Of a stretch of DNA of 18,986 bases, positions 2 through 14,793 are shown one piece after another. The first letter of the stretch is position 1. Each line of letters opens with the position of its first letter. The translations under genes and the position numbers were made by a program. Under the pieces are notes generated by a model, which saw only the letters and a list, made by a program, of their open reading frames with translations, searched no databases and was not told where the DNA came from. The DNA is from Sulfurimonas sp. (GTDB lineage: Bacteria > Campylobacterota > Campylobacteria > Campylobacterales > Sulfurimonadaceae), in contig NVUO01000010.1 of NCBI GenBank assembly GCA_002733155.1, positions 59,856 through 78,841 on the forward strand. The letters are read 5' to 3'.

Positions 2-742
2 CCTGTACTTAATTTTGGGGTAAATGCTGGTGTCTTACTGCCTTACACACTTTATAAGGCTAAAGAAGTAATTAATAGCGGTGATATTGTTTTGCTTCCT
101 CTTGAGTACCCAATGTACAACTATGATGGTATACCAAATTCACAGATGATTGACTATATATTTGCTAGGGATAAAAAAGCATTTTACCAACTTAGTTTAC
201 TAGAGCAGTTTTATATGTCTTGGAATATTACACTTGAAAGGTTATATGAAGGTTATAAAGCTAAAAAATCTGAAGCAATAAAAGTTGGACTTTATGGGGC
301 TCATAATGTAGATGAGAATGGTGATCAAATAGGTGCTAGTTTAAAAACTAAGTCCAAGGCTATAGCAGCTGAGTTAGATGCCTTAGTCGCAAATAAGTAT
401 GGTGAGAAATTTGATGAAAACTCTTTAGGTTTTGAGTATCTAAAAGGATTTGTAAACTGGTGTGAGGCTAAGGGTGTTAGATGTATCTTTATGCCTAGCA
501 CTTTGATGTATTTTGAGACTTACAAGAGTGAAAAAAAAGAAAGATGGTTTTATGAGAATTTAGCTGATGTTGTTAGAAGCAAAGGCTGGGAATTTGTTGG
601 AGAACCTTATGTGTATATGTATGATAAGAAGTTCTATTTTAATACTGATTTTCATTTAGTAGCTGAAGCAAGGGAAGTTAGGACTAAGCAGATGGTGAAG
701 GATTTAGCTGTGGTGATAGATTCCAAGTCAAGCTTGGAATGA
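2..742 (+). CDS. SGNH-fold-like protein, 5' end cut by window edge
   Basis: The frame is open to the left edge, so the true start is outside the window. A TTG at 92 could be read as a start, but 30 in-frame codons precede it and they look like real protein. I see NFGVNAG near the beginning, which resembles the block with the conserved Gly/Asn of SGNH hydrolases. Near the C-terminus NTDFHL resembles the Asp-x-(x)-His block. This would fit the acetyltransferase/esterase-like SGNH proteins that accompany surface polysaccharides, but the nucleophile Ser block would lie upstream and cannot be checked. No substrate can be assigned. The last eight codons and the TGA stop are supplied by a palindromic repeat beginning at 717 (C-terminus IDSKSSLE), so the original C-terminus was probably replaced. 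The gene converges with the GIY-YIG gene. Confidence 0.6.
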   Translation, partial: PVLNFGVNAGVLLPYTLYKAKEVINSGDIVLLPLEYPMYNYDGIPNSQMIDYIFARDKKAFYQLSLLEQFYMSWNITLERLYEGYKAKKSEAIKVGLYGAHNVDENGDQIGASLKTKSKAIAAELDALVANKYGEKFDENSLGFEYLKGFVNWCEAKGVRCIFMPSTLMYFETYKSEKKERWFYENLADVVRSKGWEFVGEPYVYMYDKKFYFNTDFHLVAEAREVRTKQMVKDLAVVIDSKSSLE

Positions 743-889
743 CGTGGGTTGGAGTTTGGAATGACGTGGATTTTGGTTTGGAGTGACGAGTTGTTTTGGT
801 TTGGAGTGACGAGTTGTTTTGGTTTGGAGTGACGTGGGTTTTGGTTTGGAGTGACTAGACTGTCATCCTGAACTTGATTCAGGATCTAC
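717..889. repeat. Palindromic repeat module 1 (head, six right half-sites, inverse tail)
   Basis: A head palindrome with arms ATTCCAAG/CTTGGAAT around TCAAG starts at 717. The right half-site (GGAATGAC, later GGAGTGAC) then recurs six times with periods of 22, 22, 23, 23 and 22 bp. The module closes with a palindrome in the opposite orientation, with arms ATCCTGAA/TTCAGGAT around CTTGA, ending in ATCTAC. It fills most of the gap between the convergent genes at its sides and overlaps the 3' end of the left gene. There is no T-tract after the hairpins, so a classical intrinsic terminator is not evident. Confidence 0.9.
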
Positions 890-934: not shown

Positions 935-1219
935 TTATAACAAACTTTCATACAAGTCATTCCAAGACTTATTAAAACTCTCTATAAGTTCTATTTTCCA
1001 TGCTCTTTTCCAAGATTTTAACTGCTTTTCTCTTTTTATCGCCTCTTTTATATCTTCATATATTTCATAATAAACTAGTTGCTTTAAATTATACTTAGCT
1101 GTAAAGCCGTCTGTTAAGGAATTTTTATGTTCATAAATTCTTTTTACTATATCGCTAGTAACACCTACATATAATGTTCCATTAATTTTATTAGTCATTA
1201 TGTATATGTATGAGTTCAA
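935..1219 (-). CDS. Small GIY-YIG domain protein (COG2827 type)
   Basis: This 94-residue protein is essentially one GIY-YIG nuclease domain. Residues 4-6 (YIY) and 17-19 (YVG) form the namesake motif. Arg27 in VKRIYEH and Glu64 in KREKQLK sit where the family has its catalytic Arg and Glu, and the end NKSWNDLY matches the family's usual N-P-x-W-x-D-L ending. Such stand-alone proteins are common in bacteria and their role is mostly unknown, with DNA end or repair functions suggested for the superfamily. The start is TTG at 1219, supported by AAAAGG six bases upstream; a stop codon closes the frame not far upstream. The gene is flanked on both sides by palindromic repeat modules (717-889 and 1250-1356), and an extended -10 box abuts the second one. 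Confidence 0.85.
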   Translation of the reverse strand: MNSYIYIMTNKINGTLYVGVTSDIVKRIYEHKNSLTDGFTAKYNLKQLVYYEIYEDIKEAIKREKQLKSWKRAWKIELIESFNKSWNDLYESLL

Positions 1220-1249: not shown

Positions 1250-1356
1250 TAGATTCCAAGTCAAGCTTGGAATGACTGGGCATGGAGGTTTGGAATGACT
1301 GGGCTTGGGGCTTGGAATGACAATAAAAGTCATCCTGAACTTGATTCAGGATCTAC
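1250..1356. repeat. Palindromic repeat module 2
   Basis: Head palindrome with arms ATTCCAAG/CTTGGAAT and loop TCAAG, two further right half-sites GGAATGAC at periods of 23 and 22 bp, then an inverse tail palindrome with arms ATCCTGAA/TTCAGGAT ending in ATCTAC. The module lies between the serine protease gene and the GIY-YIG gene and has the same polarity as module 1. Confidence 0.9.
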
Positions 1357-2862: not shown

Positions 2863-2946
2863 TAGATTCCAAATCAAGTTTGGAATGACGTGCTGGTCAT
2901 ATTTAGAATAATAAGCTCCGTCAGTCTGAGCTTGACTCAGAATCTA
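2863..2946. repeat. Palindromic repeat module 3
   Basis: Head palindrome at 2863-2890 with arms ATTCCAAA/TTTGGAAT and loop TCAAG, then 29 bp of spacer without clear half-sites. An inverse tail follows at 2920-2946 (AGTCTGAG/CTCAGAAT, one mismatched pair, loop CTTGA). The outer CTA of the tail (2944-2946) is the TAG stop codon of the large glycosyltransferase, so the repeat lies exactly at the gene end. Confidence 0.85.
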
Positions 2947-5900
2947 AAGTAAACTATTGTAGAATTTTTTACTTATATTTTGCCAGCTATTATCATAGCA
3001 CCACTGTTTTTGTTTTGTATTATCAAAGTTTTTCTCTAATAAACTTCTTATTGTTTCTGATATTTCTTTAATAGAATTATATTGTATTTGTGTAACTACA
3101 GACTTAACATCATCAAAAATACCCAACTTACTTGTAATTACTTCTTTTTGAGATAATAAGCCCATACGAACAGCTGCGGATGAGCTTTCTTGTGTATCTT
3201 TGTAAAGAAATAAAATCTTATCTGCGAGTGAGAGTTTATTTACTATCTCTTCTTCGCTTAAAAAATTTGTATTTAAGGTTATGTAAGAGTTTAGTCCGCT
3301 CTCTAAAATCTTTTGTTTTAGCTCTATTTCAAGCTGTTTTGAGATAGGAGCTGGGTGGATTGAGCATAATAATAATAATTTTACATTTGTACCTTTAGAG
3401 TGTAAGTATTTTACTATATCTACTAATTCTAAGATACCTTTTTGTGGAAGAAGGAAACCGAAGCTTGCTAAGGTTGGGTTGGTAGATTCCGTGTCAAGCA
3501 CGGAATGACGAGTTTCTTGTTCTACATGACGAGTTTGTTGTTCTACATTACGAGTTTGTTGTTCCCAATGATGAGTTTCTTGTTCTACATGACGAGCTTG
3601 TTGTTCTACATGACGAGTTTGTTGTTCCCAATGATGAGTTTGTTGTTCAAAATAGCAGTCTTTGTCATCCTGAACTTGATTCAGGATCTCCATATTTATG
3701 CCATGTGTGAAAAGATATGTATTTTTATATATATTAAAATTTTTTAGATAGTTCATATCACTTAGAGTGTGCATATATATCTTAGTCACTTTTTGAAGTG
3801 CCAAAGTTATAAAACTAAAGGAATCTGTATATGTCTCTTCAACTACGTCTTTACTAGAATGTAAAAAAAGATGGGTATTTATTTTGTTTTTAAAACAAAA
3901 ATTTAATAACTCTTCTAAAAGTTTTAGTGGTAAAAAACTAAAGTTATATTGTAAAATAAGAGTATCTATATTATTAGATAAAAGTTTCTCTTTTAATAAA
4001 CTTATATCTTTAGTATCTCGTCCATCACTCCAGCATCTAATTATGTTTGAGCTGTCTTGCTCTAGTAATTTATCATTAGAAAAATTTGCTAAAATTAAAG
4101 GCTTTTCTTTAAATGAGGAAATTAAATATTTAGAGTACATAGCTATGCCACATTTTGTATTATAAGTTGAGAATAAGGCTATTTTTTTTAGCTCTTTTTT
4201 ACTTGGATAATTTTTAATTGCTTCTTGTATATTTAAAGATATTTGTTTAGATGAGTAATTTTTAAAAATATACTCTTTTGCTTTTGTAGTTTTTATTTTT
4301 ATCTTAGCTAAATTTAAATTGTATAACTTTTGTATAGAATCTTTTATCGATTGTACTTTTGGAACTGCCCAAATAGATGAGTTTAGATTCATATGTGAGT
4401 GAGAATATTCAAAATCAAAATCAAGAAGCCAAGAGTTTTCTTGCATACAAAAATCAGTTTGACCTCCATAAGCTGTAGTTAAAACTGGAAGTTCTAAAAG
4501 CATAGCCTCAGCCATAGGAAAACCAAAACCCTCACCAAAACTAGGTGCTACTAAAAGATCTGAATTTTCATATAAATATCTGATATTTTCTTGGCATATG
4601 TCTTTGTTTATAAGTAAAATTTGTTTTGTGTCTTTGGTATAAAGTGTTACATCTTTTTCATATATTTTACTAACTTTAAAGCCTAAATCTTGAATTTGTT
4701 TTATAGTTTTATTGTGTGGGTTTGGGAATGTTTTTATGATAAGCGAAATGTTGTAAGTAGATTCCAAATCAAGTTTGGAATGACGGGCTTCTTGTTTGGA
4801 ATGACTTAGTACTTCGTCATTCTGAGCTTGACTCAGAATCTCTTGATTTGGAATCTCATTAAAAGCTTCTAAGAGTTTATCTAAACCTTTTCTAGGAAAT
4901 GCTGATGAGATATGAAGTAGTTTAAAGTTTTTTGGCAACTCAAATGAAAATGATTTAGCTTCTACTTTTAAAATATCTTCAACTACTAAACCTATAGTTT
5001 TTACAGGGCTATATACACCATTATCTTTTAAAAGGTTTGTTACATACTTTGACATAGTAAAAATCATAGTTGTTTTTTTGTTAAACCATTCTACATATTC
5101 AGATGGGAACTTTGATTCTTCCCAGCCATATGGACCTATGATTTTTTGATAACCACTCATAGCATTTGTTCTTGGTGGGTATAGGTTTCGTATAGTTATG
5201 TCAATGTTATCTAGTTTTTTATTTGATAGATCCTGAATCGAGTTCAGGATGACGGATTGGTTGTTCAGGATGACGGATTGGTTGTTCAGGGTGATATACT
5301 CTTTATTTGGTTCAAAATCTCCAGCACCTTCTGTTGAATATAAGGCTACATTTGAATTTGTGTTATCATTTAAAGCTAAGGCTATGGTTTTGTTTACAAT
5401 AGCTAGTGAGTATGAACTGTCGAATGGTCCTTCGATTTGGTAGGTAGATTCCGTGTCAAGCACGGAATGACGGGTATTATTCAGAATTTCTACATCTATG
5501 GAGATTAAATACTCGACTAATCTTCTTTTCATATTCTCATAAGAAAAACTTTTTAGGTGCTGTTTTTGTGCCTTTAAAAGTTCTACCCTAAAATATGGGT
5601 CATTTTGAAGTTTAATAATTTCTTTTGCTATATATCTAGGTGATTTTTTTTCTAATAAAGATAATGCTGTAACAGTTGAGGAAATTCCACCAGCATTATA
5701 AGTTAATATTGGTATATCGTACTTCATTGCTTCAATAAACGGCATACCAAAACCCTCATGTTCACTCAAAGACAAATATAAGTCTGCTGATTTATAATAA
5801 GCTGCTAAATCTTCATCACTTACTTTATTTGTAATTATAATATTTGTATTTAAACCTAAATCTGTGGAATAATTGTGTAAAAATTCGAAATAGTGAGGCT

Positions 5901-6558
5901 GGGAGACCCCACCTACTATAAAAAGTTTTATATTTGACTCGCCTAAGAGTTTTAACTCTTGGAGTACATCTATGAGTTGATGTTGGCATTTGTTTTGTAC
6001 TACCCTACCTACAAATAAAATATTATATGAAAACGAGTATTTTTTTACTATATCTTCGTTGGCTATAACTGAACTTTTTTTGTTTAAATCTAAAAGTAGA
6101 GCTAAGCTAGTTGGATTTGGATAATTAAGAGATTTTAACTCTTTACAATTATAATCTGAATCTCCAAGTGAGCCTATAAAATTCTTTACAGCATCTTTTA
6201 ACTGTACCCTACCATCATCACAAGCTATTTGTAAATGCTTTTCATCTTTAAAAAAATGCGATGGGGTAATGTTGTGATATATCAATACTTTTTTATCTGC
6301 AAAAGACATTATCTTATCATGACAAATATGTCCTATGGAATGATGATAAAATAATATATGATTTTCATCTTCTTTATACTGGCTTATATGATAAATTTCA
6401 TTTTTAAAATCTATATCTATAATTTTATCACAACAGTATATATTTGATTCAAAACCTAAGGCAAGAAGTATTTTTTGTGTAAACAACAATCCATTTGATA
6501 CACTATCACCATAAGCTACAGTTGGTGTAAATTGATGAATAACCTTATAGTTTTTCAT
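2944..6558 (-). CDS. Three-module GT-B glycosyltransferase with in-frame repeat insertions
   Basis: This 1204-residue protein carries three glycosyltransferase family 4-like modules, probably cytoplasmic enzymes that build the exported polysaccharide. Module 1 (about 1-352) has GDSVSNG near the N-terminus, VGRVVQNK at 183 and an EX7E pair, Glu268/Glu276. Module 2 (about 373-785) has FPRKGLDKLLEAF at 554 and Glu676/Glu684. Module 3 (about 790-1204) starts KKIALFSTYNTKCGIAMYS and has LLPQKGILEL at 1036; its second EX7E Glu is missing (Glu1124, Met1132), within ESSSAAVRMGL. Four stretches are encoded by palindromic repeats: about 357-372, 424-445, 567-602 and 957-1027. The last contains seven heptapeptides of the type EQQTRHV. 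The insertions seem to sit in loops between recognisable segments. The start overlaps the upstream gene by 14 bp. Linkage and sugar cannot be told from sequence. Confidence 0.9.
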   Translation of the reverse strand: MKNYKVIHQFTPTVAYGDSVSNGLLFTQKILLALGFESNIYCCDKIIDIDFKNEIYHISQYKEDENHILFYHHSIGHICHDKIMSFADKKVLIYHNITPSHFFKDEKHLQIACDDGRVQLKDAVKNFIGSLGDSDYNCKELKSLNYPNPTSLALLLDLNKKSSVIANEDIVKKYSFSYNILFVGRVVQNKCQHQLIDVLQELKLLGESNIKLFIVGGVSQPHYFEFLHNYSTDLGLNTNIIITNKVSDEDLAAYYKSADLYLSLSEHEGFGMPFIEAMKYDIPILTYNAGGISSTVTALSLLEKKSPRYIAKEIIKLQNDPYFRVELLKAQKQHLKSFSYENMKRRLVEYLISIDVEILNNTRHSVLDTESTYQIEGPFDSSYSLAIVNKTIALALNDNTNSNVALYSTEGAGDFEPNKEYITLNNQSVILNNQSVILNSIQDLSNKKLDNIDITIRNLYPPRTNAMSGYQKIIGPYGWEESKFPSEYVEWFNKKTTMIFTMSKYVTNLLKDNGVYSPVKTIGLVVEDILKVEAKSFSFELPKNFKLLHISSAFPRKGLDKLLEAFNEIPNQEILSQAQNDEVLSHSKQEARHSKLDLESTYNISLIIKTFPNPHNKTIKQIQDLGFKVSKIYEKDVTLYTKDTKQILLINKDICQENIRYLYENSDLLVAPSFGEGFGFPMAEAMLLELPVLTTAYGGQTDFCMQENSWLLDFDFEYSHSHMNLNSSIWAVPKVQSIKDSIQKLYNLNLAKIKIKTTKAKEYIFKNYSSKQISLNIQEAIKNYPSKKELKKIALFSTYNTKCGIAMYSKYLISSFKEKPLILANFSNDKLLEQDSSNIIRCWSDGRDTKDISLLKEKLLSNNIDTLILQYNFSFLPLKLLEELLNFCFKNKINTHLFLHSSKDVVEETYTDSFSFITLALQKVTKIYMHTLSDMNYLKNFNIYKNTYLFTHGINMEILNQVQDDKDCYFEQQTHHWEQQTRHVEQQARHVEQETHHWEQQTRNVEQQTRHVEQETRHSVLDTESTNPTLASFGFLLPQKGILELVDIVKYLHSKGTNVKLLLLCSIHPAPISKQLEIELKQKILESGLNSYITLNTNFLSEEEIVNKLSLADKILFLYKDTQESSSAAVRMGLLSQKEVITSKLGIFDDVKSVVTQIQYNSIKEISETIRSLLEKNFDNTKQKQWCYDNSWQNISKKFYNSLL
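3483..3690. repeat. Palindromic repeat module 4, in frame inside the glycosyltransferase gene
   Basis: Head palindrome at 3483-3510 (ATTCCGTG/CACGGAAT, loop TCAAG, preceded by G so the edge reads GTAG). Seven tandem units of exactly 21 bp follow (3507-3653), then an inverse tail palindrome at 3664-3690 (ATCCTGAA/TTCAGGAT). Read on the minus strand it gives EILNQVQDD, seven heptapeptides (EQQTRHV, EQQTHHW and similar), then RHSVLDTEST. It lies between the two Rossmann-like halves of glycosyltransferase module 3, between THGIN and NPTLASFGFLL. Confidence 0.92.
4757..4857. repeat. Palindromic repeat module 5, in frame inside the glycosyltransferase gene
   Basis: Head palindrome (ATTCCAAA/TTTGGAAT, loop TCAAG, left edge GTAG), one extra right half-site 21 bp further on, then an inverse tail palindrome at 4816-4842 (ATTCTGAG/CTCAGAAT) followed by one more half palindrome (4842-4857). 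On the minus strand it encodes EIPNQ, EILSQAQNDE, HSKQEA and RHSKLDLEST. It interrupts module 2 after LLEAF and before ISLIIKTFPNP. Confidence 0.88.
5227..5295. repeat. Palindromic repeat module 6, in frame inside the glycosyltransferase gene
   Basis: Head palindrome with arms ATCCTGAA/TTCAGGAT and a variant loop TCGAG, then two tandem right half-sites at exactly 21-bp spacing. There is no recognisable tail. On the minus strand it encodes NNQSVILNNQSVILNSIQDLS, in the N-terminal part of module 2. Confidence 0.87.
5445..5492. repeat. Palindromic repeat module 7, single copy inside the glycosyltransferase gene
   Basis: A perfect head palindrome at 5445-5472 with arms ATTCCGTG/CACGGAAT and loop TCAAG, left edge GTAG. 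It is followed by a weak half-tail (ATTCAGAATTTCTA) to about 5492. On the minus strand it encodes EILNNTRHSVLDTEST, between modules 1 and 2 of the glycosyltransferase. The arms are identical to those of module 4. Confidence 0.8.
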
Positions 6559-10517: not shown

Positions 10518-10672
10518 GTCATTCTGAACTTGAACATATGTCATTCCGTGCTTGACACGGAATCTAAGCTAAAATACTAGACCCTGAATCAAGTTCAGGG
10601 TGACGGTCGAGCAAGTTCAGGGTGACGGTTAATTTGGTTCATGGTGACGGTTAATCTAGTTTCTGGTGACGG
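10518..10672. repeat. Palindromic repeat module 8 between metalloprotease and wzt
   Basis: From left to right: a half-palindrome (from 10518), a full inverse palindrome at 10540-10566 with arms ATTCCGTG/CACGGAAT and loop CTTGA, a short spacer, and a head palindrome from 10578 (ACCCTGAA/TTCAGGGT, loop TCAAG). The right half-site GGGTGACGG or TGGTGACGG is then repeated three more times, each 22 bp apart. It lies between the metalloprotease stop and the wzt promoter. Confidence 0.88.
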
Positions 10673-10684
10673 ATATATACATCT

Positions 10685-12499
10685 TTAAGCTATTAATATA
10701 TCTGGTGTATAGACAATACCATCAGCTAAAGATATAGCCTCAATATTTACAAAATTTACTTCATATATATCTGTTTTTAAATTATATGTATCATCTGCTA
10801 ATTTACTTAAGTTTATCTGCTCTTTAAAGAGATTTAAATAGATAGTATCGTTACCAATACCGCCATCTACATAATCACTCCCGCCATTACCTAGGTATAT
10901 TTTATCATCACCAAATGAGCTAAAAATATTGTTATCCACCTCATTATCTGTAATAATATCATCCCCAAAACCTGTTAATACATTTTCTATAATAGTACCA
11001 ATAGCTATACCTAAGTTATTTTTACCTGTATATAACTTAGCATCTGTATATAAACTTGTTAAAGTCTCTTCAATAAATATTTTCCAATAATCATCACTTA
11101 TTAAACTTTGATGAAGTTCGACTACCTGAGCTAATGTATATACATCTACACTGTTTAATGAACCTGAACGTAAATCTATATTACTTGTGCCTATAGCTGA
11201 AGACAAGTCAATAGTATCATTGCCCCCAGCATCATAAATAGTCTGTATCTTATAATCTGTATAACTAAGTGTATATACATCATCACCTGTATTTGTATCT
11301 GGATTAACTCCATATATAGCCTGCAGAGTTGCTATATCATATAAAGAAAAAAGCTCTGGCTGAAAAGGTGCTGCTACATAAGAGATTGTATTTTGATTTA
11401 CGCTAAAGCTAGGTACATAATTAGAAGCTGAATTATAAGACATTACAGTATGATTAACATCATTTAAATCAGCTTTAAGAGTATTTGCACCTTCAAAGGG
11501 ATGTTTTAAACCTAAGGCATGTCCAAATTCATGTACAATTGTTGCATAACCTTGTTGTGATACTTCTAAGCCGAAGTCTTGTGTAGTATTAAATTCTGTG
11601 CTAAGAAAAATATCCCCATCTTCTGGATTAACTGGACCTGGCAAAAAAGCAAAACCTGAAGTATTAGCATCCATTTTAATAATATTTAAAGCAATATCCC
11701 CACCTGAGCTGACCTCTTCTAATGATATACCTAAGAGTTTATTTATCTCTTGTGTAATATTTACAACTGTATCTTTTTGATTTTGATTTAAAGCTGTCCA
11801 GTTTGTAGTAAGTTCAGCACTTCCTACAAAATTATTATAAGTATAATAAGATGATGGTATAGTTTCATTAAAACTAAAGGTAATAGTATCTGAAGTATTC
11901 CAATATGAAGTAGAGGCTAATGATGATACACCAGCTGTATTAAAATCACTTAAATCTCCAAGTCCAGTATTAATATTAGACAAACTAGTAGATAAGTCAA
12001 CTACTGAACTTAGGAAGATAATATTACTTTGAGCAAGCTGCACACTTGCTAAATCATCTGTAACTTTTAACATAACATCTTTGGCATCTTGTATATTATC
12101 AAGTCCAGCATCTGCAAAACTAATGCCAACTATAGTTTTATTTTCCATCCTAGTAGCATCGTTTCCGTTCACATCATCTAAGGCACCATTTATCAAGGCT
12201 TGAAGCATAAGACTTTGAGTAATTCTTCCGCTATCTAGTTCATTCACCCAATAAGCTAATCCTTGTGCATCTGGTAATCTTGAAAAAAGGTTTTGGTATG
12301 CTATAGTCACCGCAGAAGTTGATGATGTAGCCTCTGAATAAATTAATTTAGCCTCAGGCTGATCAAAAAAGCTACTTGCTACATCCTCTATGTTTGTAAA
12401 ACCTGATAAGTTAATCCAGTAATCCAATCCTGCTGCATCCGGCGCACGATTAAATGTAGCTATATATACCTTTGCTACTTGTTCCCTTGTAAATGCCAT
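10685..12499 (-). CDS. Secreted M10 zinc metalloprotease with DUF4214 and RTX-like repeats
   Basis: 604 residues. The N-terminal ~110 residues are a DUF4214 region with two units (YIATFNRAPDAAGLDYW at 12-28 and YQNLFSRLPDAQGLAYW at 68-84). A serralysin-like catalytic domain follows, with the zinc site HEFGHALGLKH (323-333, ligands His323, His327, His333, catalytic Glu324) and a Met-turn at Met353 in VMSYNS. Residues about 505-555 carry glycine/aspartate repeats (GFGDDIITD, SFGDDKIYLGNGGSDYVDGG). There is no N-terminal signal peptide, so type I secretion via the C-terminus is the likely route. The domain order is unusual for serralysins, which generally have no N-terminal DUF4214. The ATG overlaps the wzm stop as TAATG, so translation is coupled to a polysaccharide exporter gene. 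The substrate is unknown. Confidence 0.9.
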   Translation of the reverse strand: MAFTREQVAKVYIATFNRAPDAAGLDYWINLSGFTNIEDVASSFFDQPEAKLIYSEATSSTSAVTIAYQNLFSRLPDAQGLAYWVNELDSGRITQSLMLQALINGALDDVNGNDATRMENKTIVGISFADAGLDNIQDAKDVMLKVTDDLASVQLAQSNIIFLSSVVDLSTSLSNINTGLGDLSDFNTAGVSSLASTSYWNTSDTITFSFNETIPSSYYTYNNFVGSAELTTNWTALNQNQKDTVVNITQEINKLLGISLEEVSSGGDIALNIIKMDANTSGFAFLPGPVNPEDGDIFLSTEFNTTQDFGLEVSQQGYATIVHEFGHALGLKHPFEGANTLKADLNDVNHTVMSYNSASNYVPSFSVNQNTISYVAAPFQPELFSLYDIATLQAIYGVNPDTNTGDDVYTLSYTDYKIQTIYDAGGNDTIDLSSAIGTSNIDLRSGSLNSVDVYTLAQVVELHQSLISDDYWKIFIEETLTSLYTDAKLYTGKNNLGIAIGTIIENVLTGFGDDIITDNEVDNNIFSSFGDDKIYLGNGGSDYVDGGIGNDTIYLNLFKEQINLSKLADDTYNLKTDIYEVNFVNIEAISLADGIVYTPDILIA

Positions 12500-14655: not shown

Positions 14656-14670
14656 ATATCAGAATTCCTT

Positions 14671-14793
14671 ATCTTTAGATCCTAAATCAAGTTTAGGATG
14701 ACGATTGTATCTTTAAATCATAAATCAAGTTTAGGATGATGATTGTATCTTTAAACCCCAAATCAAGTTTAGGATGACGATTATATCTTTTTT
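14671..14793. repeat. Palindromic repeat module 9, three 38-bp tandem units
   Basis: Three 38-bp units (14671-14708, 14709-14746, 14747-14784) are followed by ATCTTTTTT. The first has the full palindrome ATCCTAAA/TTTAGGAT with loop TCAAG. In the second and third the right arm is unchanged while the left arm has decayed (ATCATAAA, ACCCCAAA). The cluster lies between the permease gene and manC and has the same polarity as the other modules. Confidence 0.9.
14780..14785 (-). promoter_or_regulatory. Possible -10 box for the manC operon, carried by the repeat
   Basis: On the minus strand the third 38-bp unit carries TATAAT, and the first two carry TACAAT at the same place (14704-14709 and 14742-14747). 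A clear -35 is not visible. The distance to the manC ATG is about 125 bp. This would let manC-wzm-protease be transcribed apart from the flagellar block, but the boxes may be chance in AT-rich DNA. Confidence 0.35.

Follow-up and report, generated by a model that had tools for sequence, protein, structure and literature searches.

An 18,986-nucleotide stretch of a Sulfurimonas sp. genome (GenBank assembly GCA_002733155.1, contig NVUO01000010.1, positions 59,856 to 78,841 of the forward strand; hereafter the window) holds a multi-module glycosyltransferase gene with four clusters of a short palindromic repeat inside its open reading frame (ORF). We consider it likely, with a probability of roughly 0.87, that these are repetitive extragenic palindromic (REP) sequences of the CGTC-tagged class that have been inserted in frame, are retained in flexible segments and expand by whole codons. 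The identity of the repeats, their absence from nearly all homologues, their recurrence in other genes and genomes, the flexible positions that they occupy and the codon periodicity of their arrays carry this reading.

Palindromes inside a glycosyltransferase gene

Judged by sequence and predicted fold, the window's repeats are CGTC-tagged REPs, the class of the Rickettsia palindromic elements (RPEs) RPE-4 and RPE-6 and of dRS3 in Neisseria. A degenerate 27-mer with up to three mismatches matched 240 times in the source genome, a 2.29-Mb metagenome-assembled genome (MAG) of 44 contigs and 84% completeness that we label G000 and whose contig C32 bears the window. The same pattern read backwards gave no match, and chance palindromes were rejected on this comparison. 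The end of the pattern, GAC(G), corresponds to the (C)GTC tag, which in this class can also read TGTC or CCTC, and the copy at 3483-3509 folds into an 8-bp stem with a 5-nt loop, in keeping with the 8-9 bp stem starting from A-T, T-A and the 4-5 nt loop of CGTC REPs. One exact 27-mer is present in at least 116 stretches of GTDB genomes, and among the 80 loci listed are names from many phyla. As the original prediction for this DNA had claimed, the family also occupies intergenic gaps: 62 of the 83 palindrome clusters classified in G000 are intergenic, another 13 overlap the end of an ORF, and 8 are found well within one.

The text available to us of Di Nocera 2013 (PMC3733652) equates RPE-4 and RPE-6 with CGTC REPs and the CGTC-1 repeats of Neisseriae with dRS3, so that the parallel with RPEs drawn in the original prediction is borne out by a common anatomy. 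The REPs described there share with ours the CGTC tag, an 8-bp stem starting with AT, the 5-nt loop, a short tail, inverted dimers, intragenic copies and the lack of a link to genes for REP-associated tyrosine transposases (RAYTs). They differ in their tails, which are mostly CCA, whereas Campylobacterota copies mostly end in CTA, CTT or CTC (CCA is found in many of the proteobacterial copies that we collected), and in the orientation of pairs. In that account head-to-head pairs predominate and tail-to-tail pairs are rare, whereas in the G000 stretches neighbouring copies separated by no more than 200 bp are head-to-head in 41 cases, tail-to-tail in 37 and in the same direction in 23. We nevertheless keep the repeats in this class because the orientation preference is a described tendency and not a rule of tag or structure.

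The glycosyltransferase ORF is open throughout, and the original prediction that one palindrome family lies in frame at four places within it (sites 1 to 4, Table 1) stands, as do the six peptides that it quoted, all of which occur in the translation. The tandem expansion that it proposed is seen as 21-bp, codon-periodic arrays at sites 2 and 4, the latter with about seven copies (period 63 = 3 x 21 in Tandem Repeats Finder, TRF). The repeats encode residues 363-372, 422-444, 573-601 and 957-1026 at sites 1 to 4, respectively, and the four clusters sum to 388 bp, that is 129 residues or 10.7% of the 1204-residue protein, rather than the roughly 140 residues and 12% estimated before. The proposed division into three modules is supported in part: Pfam recognizes two Glycos_transf_1 (PF00534) stretches, and no fold search was aimed at the third module. 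The gene is apparently translated through the repeats.

A homologue search found 1196 proteins, and the sources named among them include Campylobacterota, Sulfurimonas, Thiovulaceae and an Arcobacter sp.; the median length of 54 homologues is 1105 residues. We listed 120 of these proteins and aligned the window protein with 26 others that are 47-72% identical. By motif search, REP-type peptides occur in none of these 26 and in one of the 120. Columns gapped in at least 80% of the 26 correspond to residues 424-438, 570-598, 961-1004 and 1010-1022, and by this alignment sites 2 to 4 are net insertions relative to repeat-free homologues. The original prediction had expected the repeat residues to be missing at all four sites, but site 1 was rejected as a net insertion because repeat-free homologues carry a linker of similar length there, written in other letters. 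The notion that no homologue carries the peptides had to be corrected: 119 of the 120 listed proteins lack them, but P0028, an 836-residue fragment that is 70% identical, has REP peptides at sites 1 and 3, though in different copy numbers, while its sites 2 and 4 are free of them. On the protein alignment sites 1 and 3 are thus shared with a relative and sites 2 and 4 are specific to the window gene; with the places shared but the repeat content different, the insertions at sites 1 and 3 are probably older or recurrent. A related-locus search among the genome contigs for a relative of the glycosyltransferase locus found none. In another homologue, P0036, the linker between modules 2 and 3 holds a second repeat family, of the VIASEARQS type.

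Placement on a predicted structure, which the original prediction had suggested as a check, separates the sites. In an AlphaFold2 model of the homologue P0001 (55 sequences; mean predicted local distance difference test, pLDDT, 90.2), the only internal segments below 50 are residues 363-367, 369-372 and 930-936, of which the first two correspond to site 1 and the last to site 4. Site 2 maps onto modelled blocks of pLDDT 76-78, and site 3 onto a short, confidently modelled loop between the helix 555-563 and the strand 571-577.

Recurrence in other genes and codon periodicity

Just upstream of the window, an MBOAT acyltransferase gene carries an even larger share of inserts: its product has 712 residues against a median of 449 in 17 homologues, and 262 residues (37%) in five places are insert. 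A model of this protein itself (mean pLDDT 65, 18 sequences) places each of the five inserts between helices, where it overlaps a segment below 50. Further in-frame carriers in G000 are an aldolase/short-chain dehydrogenase (SDR) gene, galU and a methylase-like gene, and in the closed genome G071 they are a BtuF-like gene, two epimerase-like genes, rfbB-like and rfbD-like genes and priA, where the names rfbB, rfbD and the other epimerase names follow our reading of the sequences. GalU, PriA and the aldolase/SDR protein exceed NCBIfam equivalog cut-offs despite their inserts; for the BtuF-like, epimerase-like, methylase-like and MBOAT proteins, the corresponding NCBIfam models are matched with scores under the cut-off. 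One epimerase-like gene has, by eye, its repeat at apparently the same place in G071, in the closed genome G048 and in G021; G071 and G048 have arrays of 18-bp units there that differ in length. The BtuF-like gene is 81 bp shorter in G048 than in G071.

For priA, 98 genomes were searched and 20 loci aligned (L334-L353). In PriA, the linker that joins the N-terminal domain to the helicase contains CGTC-REP peptides in G071, G058, G055, G016 and G068, and peptides of the VIASEARQS type in G004 and part of G055 (L337 and L338). It is short in G048, G006, G009, G041, G056, G059 and G061, and longer without a recognized peptide in G063, G053, G050, G011, G060 and G072, among which G053 is nonetheless palindrome-rich; G021 is unaligned at the linker. 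That different elements have recurrently entered this one linker suggests a place that tolerates insertions and not one that offers a DNA target.

Arrays within genes differ from those between genes in their period. Among TRF arrays adjacent to palindromes, the period is divisible by three in 16 of 16 intragenic arrays versus 17 of 44 intergenic ones (Fisher p 1.2e-5), and under a stricter array filter in 15/15 versus 16/34 (p 2.5e-4); one duplicate-unit array and eight arrays overlapping ORF ends, two of these eight with periods divisible by three, were excluded. We infer from the uniform intragenic periods that units are gained or lost in frame. The comparison depends in part on the ORF being open, yet a different period would also leave it open where the total array length fits. 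By our reading of the consensus, most palindrome variants would be readable in three of the six frames, and in a fourth after a change of the first base of a TAG; all four frames are used among the genes found, three of them in the glycosyltransferase.

We propose the following course. CGTC REPs would insert genome-wide, singly or as inverted pairs, and in-frame copies would persist where the frame, the lack of stops and the protein fold permit. The surviving inserts reside in disordered linkers and loops, where they are likely to be nearly neutral for the enzymes, and their arrays would then grow or shrink in units of multiples of three bases, so that loop length changes by whole codons. Two REP pairs that lie between genes in G071 are missing from G048. 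The two genomes differ there by blocks of about 114 bp, in which AT-rich arms extend beyond the REPs, and one block folds into a closed structure whose ends are paired. No target duplication was definable at these blocks.

An adaptive origin of the inserts, as useful flexible segments for surface-glycan enzymes, strikes us as improbable. Many carriers in G000 and G071 do look like sugar or glycan enzymes, as the surface-glycan setting of the original prediction implied, and the array length of the epimerase-like gene does vary between G071 and G048. However, priA and the methylase-like and BtuF-like genes are hit too, and array changes preserve the frame and would therefore not switch a gene off. 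That the glycosyltransferase is instead a decaying gene tolerant of junk, as big inserts in a gene of one MAG might suggest, is hardly credible for 1204 codons with an intact frame and a product that agrees with the 26 aligned homologues in all 165 of the 165 columns in which these are identical.

Several observations do weigh against the account of in-frame insertion and codon-wise expansion. P0028 shares sites 1 and 3, to judge from its protein sequence, and exact insertion points in the glycosyltransferase cannot be given because the aligned homologues have diverged as far as they have. Site 3 falls in a loop modelled with confidence and not in a disordered one. Of the 44 intergenic arrays, 17 likewise have periods divisible by three, and there is a conditional element in the arguments from frame and stops, since a gene that an insertion had disrupted would not count as an ORF. 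The test for absence from homologues covered the glycosyltransferase, the MBOAT protein and PriA, and for the BtuF-like gene it was a comparison with G048 alone. Finally, the window's glycosyltransferase gene is known from a single MAG, incomplete as stated above, and the closed genomes show the phenomenon in other genes.

A GIY-YIG nuclease gene as candidate enzyme

If true, the identification of an enzyme is the part of greatest consequence. The best candidate for the enzyme behind the CGTC REPs is probably the GIY-YIG nuclease gene of the window (Table 1), to judge from its sequence and its neighbours. Similar small genes with CGTC palindromes on both sides encode 44 proteins in our counts, 41 of them distinct. 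The window protein matches PF01541, and the 41 largely retain the Y, Y-x-G, R, H, E and N that GIY-YIG nucleases conserve (Y6, Y17, G19 and R27 in 39 each, H31 and N83 in 40, E64 in 41).

The first samples were drawn from genomes that carry the palindromes. Of 33 small GIY-YIG genes in them, 6 were flanked on both sides (2/27 in the set fetched for the GIY-YIG family alone), compared with 21 of 1336 control ORFs from the same four sets, and a next sample gave 4/48 against 3/191 controls for both sides (p 0.03) and 8/48 against 19/191 for any side (p 0.20). In a tree of 88 small GIY-YIG proteins, nine both-flanked ones, eight labelled as such and the ninth present under another locus name, fall into one 15-row group with weak support (89/50). 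Palindromes lie within 200 bp on each side of nine members of this group and on a single side of four, and two members have none, versus no both-sided case and two one-sided cases (L309 and L371) among the other 73 rows. Because the tree genes came mostly from repeat-holding genomes, later samples were taken regardless of the repeat.

Among 398 genomes of the Pseudomonadota, the phylum to which G107 belongs, 28 of 30 best-match loci were usable. Of these, 12 have CGTC palindromes within 250 bp of the gene on both sides and 15 on any side; the 12 include G107, which was reached via the repeat, and the unselected count is 11/27. The next proteobacterial places, 41 GIY-YIG frames in 39 stretches, gave 14/41 for both sides and 21/41 for any side, compared with 0/181 and 17/181 for other ORFs more than 600 bp from a GIY-YIG gene (both sides, p 6.6e-12). 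Five permuted tags yielded 0/41 for both sides and 1-3/41 for any side. In the same 39 stretches the density of CGTC palindromes beside the GIY-YIG gene is 21 times that found elsewhere, where it falls to the permuted-tag level. Campylobacterota members of the clade are flanked on both sides in 7/23 and on any side in 10/23 cases, compared with 0/25 other GIY-YIG genes; one of 24 loci had no usable frame, and L427 and L428 among the seven repeat a gene or genome already seen.

The distribution across genomes is less sharp. We chose 30 genomes of the same genus, namely all 11 that carry 10 palindromes or more, one with 7, one with 3 and 17 with none, and assigned clade membership at E <1e-30. 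The clade gene is present in 4 of 6 genomes with at least 50 palindromes versus 2 of 17 without (p 0.02), and in 5 of 11 with at least 10 versus the same 2 of 17 (p 0.076), both limits having been set after the counts were seen. The clade gene is flanked on both sides in all five Sulfurimonas-type genomes that combine it with 10 or more palindromes, and unflanked in the two palindrome-free genomes that carry it. The gene as a strict requirement is not supported: the palindrome-rich genomes G053 (241) and G068 (294) lack it. Also speaking against the link, 13/23 Campylobacterota and 13/28 and 20/41 proteobacterial clade members have no CGTC palindrome within 250 bp, and in 10 of 23 proteobacterial stretches that have the motif further away the gene is unflanked.

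We lean slightly towards the possibility that this clade of about 95 residues is a dedicated enzyme of CGTC REPs. The gene and its terminal palindromes would then form an autonomous element, and the hundreds of REPs, including the translated ones, would be its non-autonomous offspring that are spread and tandemly expanded by the repair of nuclease-induced breaks. Alternatively, the gene may be a homing parasite that targets CGTC REPs and does not spread them, which we regard as distinctly less likely and yet the most serious competitor. GIY-YIG domains are found in homing endonucleases, among which I-TevI (1MK0) gives a weak PDB match (E 0.059), and the gene is missing from G053 and G068. The 21-fold density, in contrast, is in keeping with palindromes that form part of the gene's own unit. 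Identical stems on both flanks, seen in 10 of 19 cases, are compatible with a mobiliser as well as with homing, and an empty site of the G071 gene, sought in twenty G048 loci, was not found.

That RAYTs, the Y1-type (HUH) transposases held to move GTAG-tagged REPs, also move these repeats is very improbable. G000 has six Y1_Tnp matches, several on palindrome-rich contigs. However, no Y1_Tnp match is found in the closed genome G071 (110 palindromes), in G048 (16) or in G058 (26), and altogether such matches are absent from 6 of the 11 genomes that carry 10 palindromes or more, with G051 and G074 among the six being 68% and 81% complete, whereas G083 has nine matches and no palindrome. RAYTs were rejected as the mobiliser on this pattern of presence and absence. 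A Y1 transposase is thus not consistently present where the REPs are, as it would be in a REPtron, and the repeats show no tie to RAYTs, as is described for CGTC REPs. One palindrome lies about 390 bp downstream of a RAYT-like gene in L106. Di Nocera 2013 (PMC3733652) reports CGTC REPs in many phyla, apparently with no dedicated transposase, found no CGTC-flanked tyrosine transposase gene, and adds that RAYT genes may be missing from REP-bearing species. A 461-residue Y1_Tnp-like protein at L105:4635-6020, with a seemingly degenerate HUH region and type I secretion-like genes beside it, is possibly a domesticated RAYT.

Should the preferred reading of the nuclease as a dedicated enzyme hold, the GIY-YIG clade would be the CGTC counterpart of the systems of RAYTs and REPINs (REP doublets forming hairpins), with an unrelated enzyme. 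Both would have a nuclease-type gene flanked by REPs that it possibly serves, and in both REP pairs vary between strains as a unit; the differences are a GIY-YIG nuclease in place of an HUH tyrosine transposase and a CGTC in place of a GTAG tag. A specific enzyme candidate that adjoins CGTC REPs in several phyla would turn an open question into an assay. The adjacency has no parallel in the main text of PMC3733652, where the term GIY-YIG is absent, and our search for literature tying GIY-YIG to REPs or palindromes found nothing relevant, with most subscription journals and all preprints outside its range.

Known systems and further features

Protein-coding palindromes are a known phenomenon of which the present repeats are a strong new case. 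In the text available of PMC3733652, intragenic CGTC REPs are already reported in other bacteria, most in R. conorii, and REP clusters coding for 43-82 residues are described in Thauera and R. conorii; long codon-periodic arrays set ours apart. RPEs are likewise short palindromes in frame in conserved proteins and absent from homologues, which holds here too, P0028 at sites 1 and 3 excepted. The Sulfurimonas-type set differs from them in its Campylobacterota host, in up to five arrays per gene, in codon-periodic expansion and in a share of up to 37% of a protein (MBOAT). As reviewed in the part of Delihas 2007 (PMC2229807) available, RPEs and enterobacterial repetitive intergenic consensus (ERIC) sequences have both given fusions, and a guanylate kinase assay cited there found an insert neutral or slightly detrimental. 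ERIC/RU-1 and other miniature inverted-repeat transposable elements (MITEs) are, like ours, small mobile elements fused in frame to ORFs, but in that source ERIC/RU-1 units are 127 bp long with 7-bp terminal repeats, whereas in the window the palindrome itself is the repeated unit. The RepRanger paper (PMC12306157), in its accessible text, names Sulfurimonas once, in a table of REP counts. What is new is the large in-frame set in Sulfurimonas-type genomes, two of them closed, the repeated colonisation of the PriA linker and the tandem periods in multiples of a codon, an expansion new as far as the literature covered extends. The set provides relatives in which the conversion of mobile DNA into protein sequence can be studied.

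Table 1. Positions of the genes and palindrome clusters discussed (window numbering unless a contig or locus is named)
Feature	Position	Strand	Evidence
Inverted palindrome pair enclosing a 22-bp tandem array; starts within the 3' end of ORF 92-742	717..888		
GIY-YIG nuclease gene, 94 aa; palindromes 47 and 31 bp away on its two sides	935..1219	-	PF01541, E 1.2e-17
Intergenic inverted palindrome pair, 23-bp units	1250..1355		
Inverted palindrome pair over the stop codon of the glycosyltransferase gene	2863..2946		
Multi-module glycosyltransferase gene with four repeat clusters	2944..6558	-	Open ORF, 1204 aa; two PF00534 stretches
Site 4: inverted pair enclosing a 21-bp tandem array, EILNQVQDD ... 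(VEQQTRH)n ... RHSVLDTEST	3483..3690	-	Palindrome search, TRF
Site 3: inverted palindrome pair, EILSQAQND and RHSKLDLEST; helix-strand loop of module 2	4758..4842	-	Palindrome search, alignment
Site 2: palindrome and 21-bp tandem units, peptide ...SVILNNQSVILNSIQDL	5227..5294	-	Palindrome search, TRF, alignment
Site 1: one palindrome, RHSVLDTEST; linker between modules 1 and 2	5445..5471	-	Palindrome search, homologue alignment
Intergenic palindrome pair and 22-bp tandem array	10540..10672		
Intergenic palindromes within a 38-bp tandem array	14670..14790		
MBOAT acyltransferase gene with five in-frame arrays; upstream of the window, its end about 240 bp from the window's first base	C32:57475-59613 (= L106:17476-19614)		
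Five pairs of palindromes 36 bp apart	L086:718-780, L088:7362-7424, L091:12457-12519, L094:255-317, L096:14109-14171		

Two further proteins of the window have DUF4214 matches, that of 1368-2846 together with trypsin and RTX matches and that of 10685-12499 together with metallopeptidase matches. The five pairs of G000 in the last row of Table 1 have identical palindromes and may be part of a multicopy insertion sequence.

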